Assembly: GCA_030611945.1 (NCBI GenBank)
Contig: JAUWOV010000015.1
Coordinates: forward strand, 1 to 25,125
Reading direction: 5' to 3'
DNA length: 25,125 bases
Origin: a bacterium
Lineage (GTDB): Bacteria > JAHJDO01
The position numbers were made by a program, and so were the translations under genes. The notes under the pieces were generated by a model that had not been told where the DNA came from, did no database searches, and saw nothing but the letters and a program-made list of their open reading frames with translations. This document shows positions 4,116-19,819 of the stretch, piece after piece. Numbering within the stretch: the first letter of the stretch is position 1; each line of letters begins with the position of its first letter.

Positions 4116-5990
4116 TTATATTTTTTTAAACACGAATTGATTACATCCTATTGACTTTGTTTTAATACTATTAGTAAGAGTAAAACCCCTCTTTTTCAAA
4201 AAAGAAACAATCTCATCAAACTTCGCATATTCATAAGGAAACCCACCAGCCCAATCAACTGCGTCATGATAGATTGACATACTGCGCTTTTCCCGAAGAG
4301 GATGTTTTAACTTCATTAATCTTGCTAAAACTCGTGGAAGAAAAATAGAGAGCACCGTTATCTTTTGGATAATCTTTTCTCTCTTATTGTAAAACCGCTT
4401 AAATCCAAGCCAAAACCCGGATGACCAATGACGATTATAAATTGCCAAAGCAAATAAGCCTTCTTTCTTCACCAGCTTAGCGCTATTGTCTATGGCTTTC
4501 CACATATCGACCGTATGATGAAGCACTCCCCACGCATAAACAATATCTGCCTTCCCAAGATTATTGAGAAAATCCTTGTCTAATATTGACCCCTGCAATA
4601 TGGACCAGCGTTTTGCATTATTTCTACGTTTAATTATGCTGCAGGCTTTCACGCTCTTGGGATCACTATCTAAACTTATTACTTCCTGCGCATCCATATC
4701 CATAGCAGCCAAAGAAAAAATCCCACTTCCGCACCCAATATCTATGAAGGACTTCCCTTTTAAACTTTTTACTCCCAGCAATTCCTGCAAAGAAAGCCTG
4801 ACTTCTCTTAGGTTATCTTTATTAAAAGTCTTAATGTACCTCAACCAGTTCTCTCCAAACGAAAAAGGTGCGGATTTTTCATGAAAGAGGCGTTCGTAAA
4901 TTTGCTCTGTTTTTTCTACTGTGAAATTAATATCAAAATATTGCTCCACTCGTCTTCTTCCTGCAAGCCCCATTCTTCTTGCTTCTTTCTTATTTTTCAA
5001 TAATCTAATAATGCCATCTGCTAATGCCTCTGGATTTCCCACAGGCACAAGTATGCCAGTCTTGCCATTAACAACCACCTGAGTGTTGCTTTCTATATTC
5101 GTAGTCACTACAGGTTTAGCCATTGCCATTCCTTCTAAAAGCACATTGGATAGTCCTTCGGATAATGATGGAATTACCAGGATATCTATAACAGAGAGGA
5201 TTTCTACCAGATATTGATAATAACCCACAAATAATACCTCATTAGAAATGCCCAATTCATTAATCATCTTTTCTAATTTATCTCGTAGCGGTCCATCTCC
5301 GATGATAAGAAATTTCGCCGAGCTAGATTGGAGAACCTGTTCCACCGATTCCAGAAAATATTCAAGCCCTTTACCCTTTACAAGGCGGCTAACTACTCCG
5401 ATTACCGGCAAAGAATTCTCTATATCAAGCAATTCTTTTTGCTTCTTTGCATTTATCATTTGAGGATTAAATTTTTGTGTATCCACTCCATTAGAAATGG
5501 CAATAACTTTATCTGAGATAATTTTCTCTTCTTTTATATGAGAACTCCTTACTGATTCACTGTTGGCAATAATAACATCACTACATCCGGACAATATTCT
5601 ATCAATCAATCTTTGGATACGTCCTTTCCAAGGGGTTACTAGACAGCGTTCTGCAGAAATAACAACTGAAACATTAACAAATTTTGCCGCTATTCTACCC
5701 CATGTATTGGAAGTAAACATCCATGTATGAACTAAATCTATTTTCTTCCGCCTGATTAAGCAAATTAATCTAAAAATAACAGTAAAATCAAACTTAAATT
5801 TTTTATAGAGAATATAATATTCAATACCAAGCCTTTTCAAGTCATCCTCCAGAGGTCCCCCTCGTGTTATACAACAAACTGTAATATTGTATTTGTTCTT
5901 ATCTAGCCTTTTCACCAGCTCTACAAGCTGTCTTTCCGCTCCGCCAATATCCAGAGTCGCGATGATTTGGAGAATGTTAGTTTTACTCAT
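4116..5990 (-). CDS. glycosyltransferase (GT4) - class I methyltransferase fusion
   Basis: A 624-residue two-domain protein. Residues about 1-375 are a GT-B fold, group 1 (GT4) glycosyltransferase: the N-terminal donor/acceptor motif IIATLDIGGAERQ, VSRLVKGKG near 205, and the C-terminal PSLSEGLSNVLLEGMAMAKPVV motif region that binds the nucleotide sugar. After a short linker (FSFGENWLRYIK, near 385), residues about 400-624 form a SAM-dependent methyltransferase with FIDIGCGSGIFSL (motif I), SLDSDP and an AWGVLHHT motif. Family members of this length are usually single-domain, so this is a true fusion; the reading frame is uninterrupted. It probably transfers a hexose and methylates a sugar on the same growing glycan. 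Which sugar is unknown. Confidence 0.9.
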   Translation of the reverse strand: MSKTNILQIIATLDIGGAERQLVELVKRLDKNKYNITVCCITRGGPLEDDLKRLGIEYYILYKKFKFDFTVIFRLICLIRRKKIDLVHTWMFTSNTWGRIAAKFVNVSVVISAERCLVTPWKGRIQRLIDRILSGCSDVIIANSESVRSSHIKEEKIISDKVIAISNGVDTQKFNPQMINAKKQKELLDIENSLPVIGVVSRLVKGKGLEYFLESVEQVLQSSSAKFLIIGDGPLRDKLEKMINELGISNEVLFVGYYQYLVEILSVIDILVIPSLSEGLSNVLLEGMAMAKPVVTTNIESNTQVVVNGKTGILVPVGNPEALADGIIRLLKNKKEARRMGLAGRRRVEQYFDINFTVEKTEQIYERLFHEKSAPFSFGENWLRYIKTFNKDNLREVRLSLQELLGVKSLKGKSFIDIGCGSGIFSLAAMDMDAQEVISLDSDPKSVKACSIIKRRNNAKRWSILQGSILDKDFLNNLGKADIVYAWGVLHHTVDMWKAIDNSAKLVKKEGLFALAIYNRHWSSGFWLGFKRFYNKREKIIQKITVLSIFLPRVLARLMKLKHPLREKRSMSIYHDAVDWAGGFPYEYAKFDEIVSFLKKRGFTLTNSIKTKSIGCNQFVFKKI

Positions 5991-8256: not shown

Positions 8257-8279
8257 ATCTTACTCCATTTGAGTGATTT

Positions 8280-8402
8280 TTACTTCTTTTCTCTCATTTT
8301 TAGGAATTTTATTTTGGGAAAAGAAACGACCAATCTAAAAAAATCTTCGTAGCTTGCTATAGAGAGACTCGTTTGTTCTCCAGCTTTTTTACTACTATAC
8401 AT
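8280..8402 (-). CDS. 40-aa hypothetical ORF, possible gene fragment
   Basis: This short frame begins at an ATG (8402) preceded by AAGGGG and encodes 40 residues, including the stretch SLSIASYEDFFRLVVSFPK, before a TAA. It fills most of the gap between the FkbM gene and the next methyltransferase, on the operon strand and with an acceptable ribosome binding site. I do not recognise the peptide. It is amphipathic and ends in a lysine-rich tail. It may be the C-terminal scrap of a lost operon gene rather than a working small protein. Confidence 0.35.
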   Translation of the reverse strand: MYSSKKAGEQTSLSIASYEDFFRLVVSFPKIKFLKMREKK

Positions 8403-8409
8403 ATTCCCC

Positions 8410-9412: not shown

Positions 9413-10654
9413 TTATATCCACGTAGCTAACTTTAAAGAGTAAAACATTGCAAATATATCTCCTAATAGTCTCGCCAAAACCACACCCAAAAGTCCGAAC
9501 TTTGGTACAAGAACAAAAAGAAGTATTAATACTACAATAGAATATATTATTCTGTATCTGTATAGTTTGCCAGTTTCTCTCTGTGAGGCGAACAAAGCTT
9601 TTCCAACCATTTGGGTTGGTATCGTAAAAATAAGCCCTACGAACAAAAATTGGGCATAAAAAACAGAATCAACATATTTTTGTGAGTAGAGCAAAGTAAA
9701 AATATAGGGGCAAAAGAAGATCATAATTCCTGAAACACCAGCAGCGAGAAGCACCAAGTAAAAGTATCTTTTTTTAACTGCAGAATATGCCTCCTTTTTA
9801 TTCATTGTCGATAGTTTTGGAAAAGCCACACGAGAAATAGGGCTTATTGTAGTTCTTATGCTACTGGAAACTGCTGATGCGATTGAATAAACGGCAAGAT
9901 CGGAAAACCCAAGTAGTACTCCTATAATTATCTTGTCGGCTTGATCCGCAATAGTATTAATACCATTCATCAGCGATAAATGCTTTCCGAAAGATATCGC
10001 ACTCCTATCATCACTTTGGTTTTTCATTTTTCTTAATCCTAATGTAAAAAAATATCCTCCAAGTAAGGAACTAGCAAGCAAAGAAGTGATGAGTATGTAT
10101 ATTAAATCTCTTGATAAGAAAATTACGATGGATACTGATAGAAGGAAAATGACCTTGGTGATATTTTGATATTTGGCTACCTTGTTAAATTGCTTTTTCC
10201 CAGCAAAGAAAGCCTGAAAAGTTTGAAAATTGTAGATAAACGGGAAGAATAGCGAGGAAATCATAAAACATTTTCCTAACAAGAGAGACTCCGTTGAGAA
10301 ATAGTAAATTCCCACTCCGAATACCACAACGCTACCAAGAATACTCCATTTAAATTTCTCTTTTGTGCCTGTAATTAAAACATGGTCATGTCCATTGGCA
10401 ACTGCTTGTGTTATAGCAGCACCCATCCCGCTCAAGGTAAATAGGGACAGAATACCTAATATGGCAAATATAAAGCTGTACTGCCCATACATCTCTTTGG
10501 ACAAGAACCTAGCGAAGAGAATAGAGAGGAAAAGAGAACACCCAATATCGATTCCCCGAGCTATGACTAAATAGGTGGTGTTTTTCATGTAATATCTAAT
10601 GTCCAACTGTAAGCAATTACCTATTCTATCTACGAATTTATTTAGAGTAATCAT
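9413..10654 (-). CDS. polysaccharide flippase (Wzx/PST-like)
   Basis: A 413-residue multi-spanning membrane protein with about a dozen hydrophobic segments. It begins YLVIARGIDIGCSLFLSILFARFLSKEMYG near residue 25, a typical N-terminal helix and motif for the MOP/PST superfamily of lipid-linked oligosaccharide flippases. Such proteins move undecaprenyl-linked repeat units across the inner membrane. I place the start at 10654 because AAGGAAG lies 6 nt before that ATG. A longer frame to 10711 runs through a duplicated glycosyltransferase tail and adds 19 residues unlike the family. No polymerase is seen nearby. Confidence 0.88.
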   Translation of the reverse strand: MITLNKFVDRIGNCLQLDIRYYMKNTTYLVIARGIDIGCSLFLSILFARFLSKEMYGQYSFIFAILGILSLFTLSGMGAAITQAVANGHDHVLITGTKEKFKWSILGSVVVFGVGIYYFSTESLLLGKCFMISSLFFPFIYNFQTFQAFFAGKKQFNKVAKYQNITKVIFLLSVSIVIFLSRDLIYILITSLLASSLLGGYFFTLGLRKMKNQSDDRSAISFGKHLSLMNGINTIADQADKIIIGVLLGFSDLAVYSIASAVSSSIRTTISPISRVAFPKLSTMNKKEAYSAVKKRYFYLVLLAAGVSGIMIFFCPYIFTLLYSQKYVDSVFYAQFLFVGLIFTIPTQMVGKALFASQRETGKLYRYRIIYSIVVLILLFVLVPKFGLLGVVLARLLGDIFAMFYSLKLATWI

Positions 10655-10697
10655 GCTTAACTTCCTTAAATAAGTATTAATCTTTTGGAAAGCGATG

Positions 10698-10760
10698 TCA
10701 TAGCAGCCCATCCATTAATTTTAATTCCTTATCAGCCAAATAATCCAAACTGTAATTCTC
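10698..10760 (-). pseudogene. duplicated C-terminal scrap of a GT4 glycosyltransferase
   Basis: This 63-bp stretch matches the last 21 codons (stop included) of the intact glycosyltransferase gene (11510-11572) with only two mismatches. It reads ENYSLDYLADKELKL then MDGLL and a TGA stop; the intact copy ends MEGLL. It lies between the 235-residue methyltransferase and the flippase. The bases just upstream share no similarity with the intact gene. It is an unambiguous remnant of duplication or recombination. Confidence 0.85.
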
Positions 10761-10805
10761 AAAATCATCTTCAATGCAAAGAGTGTTAGTTTTTACCACG
10801 CGAGT

Positions 10806-11513
10806 TCATAATAACCCTTTCTTTTTAAGAACAATTGCATAGCCTCCCTCTAACAAACAGAATGTTTTGTCAATGGATAGTGAAAGCTTTTCTAGTTTGG
10901 CAATCAAATCCATTAGAAATTCACTCTTCTTATAAAATTCCCATATTCCAATCTTAAGAAGAACGGCTGGAATTGTCCACAATACAAAATGAAGGATAAA
11001 ACTTGTTAATCCACCTAATTTAATTGCTTCTACAACATAAACTCCATTTTTGTTAGCTAATCGCTTAATTTTAGGGATGCTATATCTCCTGTATCCGTGA
11101 AAACCATACAGAAAAAAACTGTATCTACTCGGAATGGTCAACATCATGTATCCATCATCTTTTAAGCACATCTTCATGCCTTTTATTGCTTTCCCATCGT
11201 TTTTTATATGTTCAAAGGACTGAATTGCTATTATAAAATCAAATTTGTGATTAAGATTTTGCAACTCTTCCGCATCATAAACTAAAAAAGAGATGTGCAT
11301 GCCATTTTCTTCTTTTTCCGTTTGCCAAGCTTCATGTGCTTTTATATCAATACCCAAATAAGACCCCTTTATGGCATGTGAAGTAAAATATTGATGGTAA
11401 TTCCCTTTTCCACAACCAACGTCTAATATTGTAGCATTATTTTTTTGACAGTATTTGTCTATCAAATGTTTAATGGTATTATCTGTGCAAAATCTTGCAG
11501 GGCTCTCGATCAT
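10806..11513 (-). CDS. class I SAM-dependent methyltransferase
   Basis: A 235-residue enzyme. Motif I is TILDVGCGKGNYHQYF near residue 29. The segment FDFIIAIQSFEHIKNDGKAIKGM near 92 and LTIPSRYS near 124 fit the Methyltransf_11 family. The C-terminal half contains a hydrophobic stretch (TSFILHFVLWTIPAVLLKIGI, near 170) that may contact the membrane. Its ATG overlaps the stop of the upstream GT4 gene (ATGA), so the two are coupled. The gene is bracketed by two copies of a 63-bp glycosyltransferase tail, which suggests it entered or was copied as a unit. Confidence 0.87.
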   Translation of the reverse strand: MIESPARFCTDNTIKHLIDKYCQKNNATILDVGCGKGNYHQYFTSHAIKGSYLGIDIKAHEAWQTEKEENGMHISFLVYDAEELQNLNHKFDFIIAIQSFEHIKNDGKAIKGMKMCLKDDGYMMLTIPSRYSFFLYGFHGYRRYSIPKIKRLANKNGVYVVEAIKLGGLTSFILHFVLWTIPAVLLKIGIWEFYKKSEFLMDLIAKLEKLSLSIDKTFCLLEGGYAIVLKKKGLL

Positions 11514-11572
11514 AGCAACCCCTCCATTAATTTTAATTCCTTATCAGCCAAATAATCCAAACTGTAATTCTC
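11510..11572 (-). repeat. intact-gene copy of the 63-bp direct repeat
   Basis: These are the last 21 codons of the GT4 gene, stop codon included. They are repeated in the same orientation 812 bp away at 10698-10760 with 61 of 63 identical bases by eye. The two copies enclose the 235-residue methyltransferase gene. Confidence 0.9.
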
Positions 11573-16832: not shown

Positions 16833-16908
16833 GCGCCTGTAGCTCAGTAATGGATAGAGCAAGGGATTCCTAATCCCTGTGTCGGAGGTTCGAATCCTCT
16901 CAGGCGTA
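16833..16908 (+). tRNA. tRNA-Arg(CCT)
   Basis: A 76-nt cloverleaf. The acceptor stem is GCGCCTG/CAGGCGT (first pair G-T) and the D stem GCTC/GAGC. The anticodon stem AGGGA/TCCCT holds the loop TTCCTAA, giving anticodon CCT, which reads AGG. The T arm is GAGGT-TCGAAT-CCTC and the discriminator is A. CCA is not fully encoded (ACA). It starts 12 bp after the NYN stop codon. Confidence 0.95.
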
Positions 16909-16922
16909 CAAGATTTAGCAAG

Positions 16923-16951
16923 TTGAAAATATATATTTTTTGTGATATAAA
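16923..16951 (+). promoter_or_regulatory. promoter of tRNA-Val(CAC) and downstream genes
   Basis: TTGAAA (16923-16928), a 17-bp spacer and TATAAA (16946-16951), with an extended -10 TG at 16943-16944, lie 14 bp before the tRNA. This is the best promoter for the tRNA-Val, zinc protein, coiled-coil protein, RNase HI and possibly rnpB unit. Confidence 0.65.
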
Positions 16952-16965
16952 TTTTTGTGAATTCG

Positions 16966-17037
16966 GGGCGATTAACTCAGCGGTAGAGTGCTACTTTCAC
17001 AGAGTAGAAGTCACTGGTTCAAACCCAGTATCGCCCA
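16966..17037 (+). tRNA. tRNA-Val(CAC)
   Basis: A 72-nt cloverleaf. The acceptor stem is GGGCGAT/ATCGCCC and the D stem ACTC/GAGT. The anticodon stem CTACT/AGTAG (five pairs) holds the loop TTCACAG, giving anticodon CAC, which reads GUG. The T arm is ACTGG-TTCAAAC-CCAGT. A glutamate reading (TTC) is ruled out because it would break the anticodon stem. Its 3' end is 22 bp before the next start codon. Confidence 0.92.
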
Positions 17038-17059
17038 CTAAACTGGGAGGATATTGAAT

Positions 17060-17955: not shown

Positions 17956-18345
17956 ATGGATGAGTTAACTATATATGTTGACGGGGCATCAGCGGGTAAT
18001 CCTGGAAAAGCGGGCATTGGCATTGTGTTCTTTTGCGGAGGAAAGAAGATAAAGGAATATTCTCAATGCATAGGAGTTACAACAAATAATGTGGCTGAGT
18101 ATATGGCTGTAGTTTTTGCCATGCAGGAAGCTTTGATCGTAAATGTGAGAAACATTACTGTATTTTCAGATAGTGAACTTATTGTAAATCAAATAAACGG
18201 CGTTTACAAAGTCAAAGATAATAACTTGTTTCGCCTGTATAAACAGGTTCAGCATCTAAAAAACGGCTTTAAAAAGTTTAGTATTACACATATAAAACGA
18301 GCTGGTAATAAAGAAGCCGATAAATTAGCTAAGCAGGTCGGTTGA
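17956..18345 (+). CDS. rnhA: RNase HI family protein
   Basis: A 129-residue protein of the short RNase HI type, which cuts the RNA strand of RNA-DNA hybrids. Active-site residues are visible: Asp9 (IYVDGASAGNPG), Glu48 (NNVAEYMAV), Asp72 (FSDSELIVNQI) and Asp122 (NKEADKLA). The basic handle region of the E. coli enzyme is absent, as in many short homologues. The start ATG directly follows the stop of the preceding gene. The last five codons (stop included) overlap the 5' strand of the RNase P RNA P1 helix, so the coding and RNA constraints share about 15 bp. Confidence 0.93.
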   Translation: MDELTIYVDGASAGNPGKAGIGIVFFCGGKKIKEYSQCIGVTTNNVAEYMAVVFAMQEALIVNVRNITVFSDSELIVNQINGVYKVKDNNLFRLYKQVQHLKNGFKKFSITHIKRAGNKEADKLAKQVG

Positions 18346-18678
18346 CCGTTCCGACACATGTCGGAAAGGAAAGTCCGGGCTCCGGAGAGCAAGATGTCCC
18401 ATAACCTGGGATGGAAGCGATTCCAAGGAAAGTGCAGCAGAAAGCAAACTTCCAAGTGTCTGATTAGGTGCTTGGTAAAGTTGAAATGGCGTGGTAAGAG
18501 CACACCGGTCTGATAGCGATATCAGGCGCAAGGCAAACCCCATCTGGAGAAAGGCTAAGTAAGAGGGAAGAGACTGCTCGTCTCAATTTAACCCTTGGGT
18601 AAGCCGCTAGATGTCGATGGCAACATCGGTGCAAGATAGATGGTCAACTATTACAGAACCCGGCTTATAGACCTGCTT
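18331..18678 (+). ncRNA. rnpB: RNase P RNA, bacterial type A
   Basis: The catalytic RNA that trims tRNA 5' leaders. The 5' and 3' ends pair as P1 (AAGCAGGTC with GACCTGCTT), followed by P2 (GGTTGACC with GGTCAACT) and a short P3 (CCGAC/GTCGG). The conserved core GGAAAGTCCGGGCTCC follows, with GGTAAGAGCACACCG and GGCAAACCCCATC in the middle and ACAGAACCCGGCTTAT near the 3' end. A T-rich stretch (ATTTTTATTCTTT) after P1 may end transcription. It points toward ispG (convergent). No clear own promoter was found inside rnhA, so it may be processed from the upstream transcript. Confidence 0.96.
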
Positions 18679-18724
18679 ATTTTTATTCTTTGCTCAAGAT
18701 AATCTTTCAGTTCGTTATATCCAT

Positions 18725-19819
18725 TTATCTCCATAATTTCCTGATTCCGCATATCAGTTCTTCAACAAGTTTTTCTTTTTTGACTCCTTTGACGATTTTT
18801 CCATTACAGAATAGAATCCCTGAGGTTTTTCCTCCTGCAACTCCAATATCAGCTTCCTTGGCTTCACCCGGGCCGTTTACTTCGCAGCCCATGACAGCGA
18901 TTTTTATACACGGGAGTGGTGGAATAATAGTCTCAAGCTGTTTTTTTAGTTCTGTTACAGCCGCTATAACATCTATCCTACATCTGCCGCATGTGGGACA
19001 GGAAATAATTTCAGGACCGTATTCTCTGAGTTTTATAGATTGTAATATCTGAAAGCCTGCTTTTACTTCTTCTTCAGGAGGTGCAGTCAATGAAACCCTG
19101 AGAGTATCTCCAATGCCTTCTGAGAGTAGTATGCCTAGTCCAACAGATGATTTAATAAGCCCTTCGGGCAATGGTCCAGCCTCTGTAATCCCAAGGTGAA
19201 ACGGATAATCGCATTTACCTGCCATTTGCCTGTAAGCTTCTACGGTGGAGAGTACGTTTGAAGATTTTAGTGATATGATAATATTGTAAAATTTATGCTT
19301 TTCAAAAATCTTTAGATACTTGAGACATTCATCTACCATTAGTTTCGGATTTCGGATTTCGGATTTCGGATTTTTCTTTATTGAGCCACTATTTACCCCT
19401 ACTCTGATTGCTGTGCCTTTTTCCGATGCTGCAGAGATGATCATACCAAGATGCTTTTGGCTGGAAATATTTCCCGGGTTAAGTCTTAATTTATCAACAC
19501 CCTGTTTTACTGCTTCCAATGCAAGTTTGTATGAAAAATGTATATCTGCAACAAGAGGGATGTTAATCTGTTTTTTTATCTCTCCTAAACATTTTGCCGT
19601 TTTGATATCAGGAACTGCAACCCTTATAATTTCACAGCCTGTTTTCTCCAGACTTCTTATTTGAGAAACCGTCCCATCAATATCCCTTGTATCTGTTTTT
19701 GCCATAGACTGAACAGATATCGGAGCATCTCCGCCTATTATAATATTCCCAACTTTAACAGGTCTGGTTTTACGGCGTTTGATTGGATAATTGATTGTTT
19801 TGTGAGGTATTTTTTCCAT
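18725..19819 (-). CDS. ispG: 4-hydroxy-3-methylbut-2-enyl diphosphate synthase (MEP pathway)
   Basis: A 364-residue iron-sulfur enzyme (GcpE) converting MEcPP to HMBPP. It opens with RRKTRPVKVGNIIIGGDAPI, has the barrel motif VADIHFSYKLA near residue 91, and LRLNPGNI. The C-terminal cluster domain has CPTCGRCRIDV near 270 and CEVNGPGEAKEADIGVAGG near 310, supplying the three cysteines and the conserved glutamate. Residues about 150-161 (KKNPKSEIRNPK) are encoded by a heptamer array and lie where the family has a variable loop. The start overlaps the rseP end by 50 bp; no other start precedes the conserved N-terminus. It is the last gene of the rpmA-dxr-rseP-ispG operon. Confidence 0.95.
   Translation of the reverse strand: MEKIPHKTINYPIKRRKTRPVKVGNIIIGGDAPISVQSMAKTDTRDIDGTVSQIRSLEKTGCEIIRVAVPDIKTAKCLGEIKKQINIPLVADIHFSYKLALEAVKQGVDKLRLNPGNISSQKHLGMIISAASEKGTAIRVGVNSGSIKKNPKSEIRNPKLMVDECLKYLKIFEKHKFYNIIISLKSSNVLSTVEAYRQMAGKCDYPFHLGITEAGPLPEGLIKSSVGLGILLSEGIGDTLRVSLTAPPEEEVKAGFQILQSIKLREYGPEIISCPTCGRCRIDVIAAVTELKKQLETIIPPLPCIKIAVMGCEVNGPGEAKEADIGVAGGKTSGILFCNGKIVKGVKKEKLVEELICGIRKLWR
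19343..19370 (-). repeat. heptanucleotide tandem array inside ispG
   Basis: Four perfect copies of TTTCGGA on the plus strand (TCCGAAA on the coding strand) give the peptide NPKSEIRNPK. Since 7 is not a multiple of 3, gain or loss of one unit would shift the frame of this essential enzyme. The same peptide is familiar from other metagenome-derived proteins (recollection). Confidence 0.9.

Follow-up and report, generated by a model that had tools for sequence, protein, structure and literature searches.

Papers citing the original work describe some restriction-modification (RM) systems as flanked by long, variable target duplications of the order of 100 bp (PMC3874152, PMC1643837, PMC3031569). 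Under the name "insertion with long target duplication" the process is described in these papers for restriction-modification genes of Helicobacter pylori and others (Nobusato et al. 2000, Gene 259:99; Furuta et al. 2010; as cited in PMC1643837, PMC3031569 and PMC3874152). On the descriptions given there, it would be the closest known process to what we find in a glycan locus of the window, which is the whole stretch of DNA analysed here (25,125 nucleotides, the entire contig 83 of a draft genome of 1.66 Mb in 119 contigs with an estimated contamination of 3%). As far as these citing papers describe it, the likeness would lie in a small unit without a transposase, in long direct repeats that are copies of the target and vary in length and sequence, and in a target gene that stays intact. 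The cases in this genome differ in their cargo (a methyltransferase of a sugar locus, pairs of toxin-antitoxin type, AbiE and a DUF4143 ATPase), in coming from a sparsely sampled phylum and in repeats of 35-105 nt.

Three other processes leave partly similar traces. In homology-facilitated illegitimate recombination (PMC3240628) a partial copy of a gene end can likewise remain beside newly joined DNA, but this process requires an anchoring homologous stretch and not direct repeats at both ends. Integrative elements at the 3' ends of genes also show the gene end directly repeated at both edges of the insert (attL/attR), whereas here an insert of 749 bp lacks an integrase, the target sequence differs per locus and the modules hold one or two genes. 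The gene cassettes of integrons (attC) resemble our case as single-gene units beside a short repeated element; in contrast to them, the 63-nt repeat does not fold (z about +1) and there is no repeated recombination site.

Organization of the locus and of the repeat

Read along the minus strand, the locus comprises in turn a GT4 glycosyltransferase gene, a methyltransferase (MTase) gene, 45 nt, an orphan copy of the GT4 tail ("scrap"), 43 nt and a flippase gene (Table 1). The MTase is a generic class I enzyme according to Pfam and NCBIfam and is sited within the glycan locus.

Table 1. Features of the repeat-bracketed region, in minus-strand order
Feature	Coordinates	Strand	Evidence or remark
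GT4 glycosyltransferase gene, 377 aa	11510..12643	-	Pfam Glycos_transf_1 1.3e-39; repeat formed by the final 63 nt
Repeat copy 1, intact GT4 3' tail ending in the ATGA that starts the MTase	11510..11572	-	
Class I SAM-dependent MTase, 235 aa, bracketed gene	10806..11513	-	Pfam Methyltransf_23 2.8e-16; Azospirillum brasilense homologue beside GT4
45-nt spacer, MTase stop to scrap	10761..10805	-	weak, non-significant likeness to flippase leader
Repeat copy 2, the scrap (orphan tail of GT4); 61/63 nt identical and non-coding where it stands	10698..10760	-	
Flippase leader, 43 nt, Shine-Dalgarno-like AAGGAAG	10655..10697	-	sequence
MOP-type flippase, 413 aa from likely true start	9413..10654	-	Pfam Polysacc_synt 8.9e-22

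The repeat comprises the final 20 codons of the GT4 gene and its stop. Its two direct copies lie exactly where the earlier note had placed them and agree in 61 of 63 positions (97%). Both mismatches (10706, G/A; 10710, A/C) fall within the last 13 nt, one being silent (TTG/CTG) and the other a Glu/Asp exchange, and the longest run without a mismatch is 50 nt. By chance the longest exact repeat has 13-19 nt (200 order-2 Markov simulations of the window), and the runner-up direct repeats in the window are 18-32 nt long with 71-89% identity. A third copy was not found in the 1.66 Mb of the genome, even at E<=10; the next-best match has 20 nt (E 0.04). These are long, non-dispersed direct repeats in two copies, and with only two copies in the genome a dispersed repeat is ruled out. 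The previous proposal of a footprint of a recent duplication or recombination is supported, recent being understood on the scale of the repeat with its 97% identity.

The ATGA that overlaps the GT4 stop (11510-11513) supplies the start codon of the MTase, and because of this overlap copy 1 contains that start codon. It probably contains the MTase ribosome-binding site as well, and the MTase is probably translationally coupled to GT4. The repeats enclose the MTase gene, as the earlier note had said, and owing to the overlap the repeat also shares four nucleotides with it. On the other side, the flippase ORF as called has 432 aa from 10711; its first 19 residues come from the scrap, which it reads in a frame other than that of GT4. 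To judge from the good Shine-Dalgarno sequence AAGGAAG, the true start is likely at 10654, and the suspicion of a false 19-residue N-terminus is supported.

The operon is tightly packed save for the 151-nt gap containing the scrap and a second gap of 153 nt (8257-8409). It also harbours, besides the separate GT4-MTase pair, a 624-aa gene (4116-5990, minus strand) with a GT4 domain fused in frame to a methyltransferase domain. Elsewhere in the window an RNase H-like gene has a complete class A RNase P RNA (18330-18683, plus strand; Rfam score of 291 bits) downstream of it, and tRNAs lie at 1892-2066 and 16833-17038.

Contents of the putative insert

The MTase is the sole ORF of the 749-bp insert, which carries neither a transposase nor an integrase and, compared end to end, no terminal inverted repeats. 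Neither the two tails nor the intergenic region fold, as DNA, more strongly than shuffled sequences do, and no Rfam match was found at the repeat. Since the insert is without terminal inverted repeats, recombinase or repeat hairpin, a mobile element was ruled out. An integrative element with att sites was rejected as well, because no site-specific recombinase is encoded beside the MTase, and so was an integron cassette, the folds showing no attC-like hairpin. A viral or plasmid source was also dismissed: the locus has no DNA match in plasmids, the tail has no exact match in viral contigs, and relatives of the MTase were found neither in phages nor in viral contigs. Among the window genes examined there is no restriction enzyme, and in this respect the cargo is not of the restriction-modification kind.

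Bracketing repeats elsewhere in the genome

We searched 1.21 Mb of the 1.66 Mb genome for direct and inverted repeat pairs of 28-200 nt with an identity of at least 84% and a spacing of up to 4 kb. In total 11 direct and two inverted two-copy pairs were obtained. Seven of the direct pairs enclose a module of one or two genes, "module-like" being assigned by eye, while neither of the two inverted pairs in this 1.21 Mb does so. Six of the seven carry the duplicated edge of an adjoining intact gene and one has an intergenic target; the bracketing repeats are 35-105 nt long and their sequence differs at every locus. Apart from the MTase, the cargo (assigned by Pfam/PADLOC) consists of a zeta-toxin pair at mcsA, a Phd/YoeB-like pair (PhdYefM and YoeB/ParE-like) at lolA, a HicBA-like module (HicA) at coaX, AbiEi/AbiEii at dnaJ, a DUF4143 ATPase (AAA_14/DUF4143) at a VanZ gene and DUF4160/DUF2442 at the intergenic site. 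The coaX site is laid out as in the window, with the intact gene tail, the cargo and then a 38-codon tail scrap interrupted by a stop. In the congener sample (424 kb) there is one two-copy direct pair, and it lies between response-regulator paralogues.

Several further repeat pairs were set aside as dispersed, lying within one ORF or lying between paralogues. Different in kind from the two-copy pairs is a dispersed 39-nt repeat (GAGAGGGTTAGGGTGAG) which brackets an ORF in L100 (G000:C44; 1054-1092 and 1508-1546); we take this ORF to be DUF559-like. The genome also contains two DUF5661 genes with about 90% protein identity in different contexts (L139, 16543-16815; L155, 3410-3676).

The earlier note had interpreted the repeat as a trace of cassette shuffling in the glycan locus. 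Such a specificity is not supported, because six unrelated loci, mostly with toxin-antitoxin modules, share the same anatomy. Taken alone, the window shows an ordinary recombination scar, and its interest comes from being one of seven similar scars in the genome. The series suggests that small genes enter this genome by some process in which part of the target site is copied, although each locus may also have an unrelated explanation of its own.

The same sites in congeners

The phylum sample consists of five genomes of one genus, the source genome and four congeners. In all four congeners the mcsA target is single-copy and the toxin module is absent. Every distance between the scrap and a congener equals the distance between the gene and that congener plus 3, as would be expected if the scrap had been copied from the gene of its own genome after the split from the congeners. 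At lolA the module is absent in three congeners. In the fourth (G003) the module is present, the upstream copy is missing and a further gene intervenes, so the history of this site is more complex; in addition, the duplicated lolA piece is found about 100 nt inside the junction between module and gene and therefore not all seven cases fit one simple scheme. At the VanZ site of G001 a glycosyltransferase gene and VanZ are adjacent, with no DUF4143 ATPase gene between them. The observations at mcsA, lolA and VanZ fit insertion with target duplication, but the left flanks of mcsA and lolA are not syntenic with the congeners. For the GspF-like neighbours of the DUF4160 site the congeners have distant paralogues only, and the comparison covers mcsA, lolA and the VanZ site, with no coaX or dnaJ counterpart among the congener sequences.

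An attC-like hairpin (TAACAAATCACTGCACTGG...CCAGTGAGTTCAGGCGTTATGC; DNA fold -10 kcal/mol, z -2.9) was noticed in L076 (G000:C14, about 19047-19115, minus strand). It follows an HNH endonuclease gene and ends where the duplicated lolA piece begins, possibly an integron-type junction.

These sites also bear on whether the layout in the window could be an assembly artefact, that is a chimera of strain variants, as might be feared of a draft in 119 contigs with 3% estimated contamination. We consider this very improbable, the least probable of the readings weighed here: the junction of MTase, spacer and scrap is unique sequence, which reads must have covered, usual reads are longer than the repeat, and the layout recurs at independent loci, with two such target sites unoccupied in congeners.

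Relatives of the locus and origin of the repeat

The GT4, MTase and flippase genes are absent from all four congeners, in which none of the glycan locus is present; manC is kept in all four, and mostly its downstream genes too (79-95% protein identity). On three Rhizobium plasmids only a few bases separate a GT4 homologue from the flippase-type gene behind it (annotated as flippase in R. phaseoli), and there is no MTase. This order speaks for the insertion proposed below; against it, the Rhizobium flippase has no detectable homology to that of the window.

Our preferred reading, to which we give about an even chance, is that the two 63-nt tails are target copies left by one insertion. The ancestral order would have been GT4, tail, 43-nt leader and flippase. 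The 749-bp segment bearing the MTase would have entered at the GT4 stop, and 63 nt of the target would have been copied; because of this copying the GT4 end would be intact and an orphan tail would stand before the flippase. The MTase would take its start codon from the ATGA of the duplicated tail. We infer a single event in this direction, with capture of DNA at a staggered break and subsequent fill-in.

What speaks most against the MTase having simply been inserted by itself is a plasmid of Azospirillum brasilense, where the best plasmid homologue of the MTase (29% identity, with the motif GxHGYRRY in common) directly follows a GT4 homologue in the same order and strand as in the window, each of the two being among the best plasmid matches. 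The pair may therefore be old rather than a new insertion, and the DNA that arrived may have been not the MTase alone but an allele of GT4-MTase, placed by an illegitimate join upstream of a GT4 tail and flippase. This leads to the main rival explanation, which we regard as rather unlikely: an old GT4-MTase pair would have recombined by homology into a resident GT4-flippase operon, while an illegitimate join of its right end fell within the resident GT4, 63 nt short of the gene end, and the scrap would be the end of the resident allele. In Magnetospirillum, too, a GT4 homologue precedes a methyltransferase, albeit a different one; the two mismatches, close together in the last 13 nt, could be differences between alleles; and homology-facilitated illegitimate recombination is known in several bacteria (PMC3240628). 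However, a second, 97% identical GT4 allele without MTase would be required, and the genomes examined contain neither such a recipient allele nor the donor allele; this recombination alone also leaves the six similar cases with unrelated cargo unexplained.

The exact end of the homology between the tails at the GT4 stop, within ATGA, could also be read as templated repair. If the order GT4-MTase-flippase were ancestral, a break after the MTase stop could have been repaired by copying about 63 nt of the GT4 tail 812 bp away, with a return via the TATGA common to both gene ends (GT4 GGGTTGCTATGA, MTase GGGTTATTATGA, scrap GGGCTGCTATGA). To the flippase leader the 45-nt spacer shows a weak, anchored likeness, which would agree with this but is not significant, being matched by 12% of operon windows (3% for the anchored 25 nt), and the spacer itself is left unexplained. 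We judge such a repair improbable. Still more doubtful is the reduction of an arrangement GT4-MTase-GT4'-flippase to the tail of GT4'. Although tandem GT4 homologues exist (three in a row in L014), no further GT4' sequence is found upstream of the scrap, and a recent full duplication followed by a near-complete deletion would be required.

Whatever its origin, the 50-nt identical run could, from its sequence, support deletion or amplification by recombination, and excision of an 812-bp unit is possible in principle. This deletion would leave the GT4 gene intact 43 nt before the flippase, with a junction of the GT4 tail and then CATCGCTTTCC.

Implications

The findings bear on how toxin-antitoxin modules and other small units move where no transposon is visible. 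Our tentative suggestion, which we hold to be plausible rather than probable, is that this lineage has a transposase-free insertion process which places one- or two-gene modules at gene edges and duplicates 35-105 bp of the target. The target gene would survive, and the module could later be excised or amplified via the repeats. Its cargo would consist for the most part of toxin-antitoxin and abortive-infection pairs, with metabolic genes such as the MTase among the rest. For annotation the orphan pieces matter, as gene callers will extend genes over them or invent new ones. With seven footprints in one genome, nearly all consisting of an intact gene edge and an orphan copy, there is a concrete series in which junctions, empty sites and the responsible enzyme can be sought.
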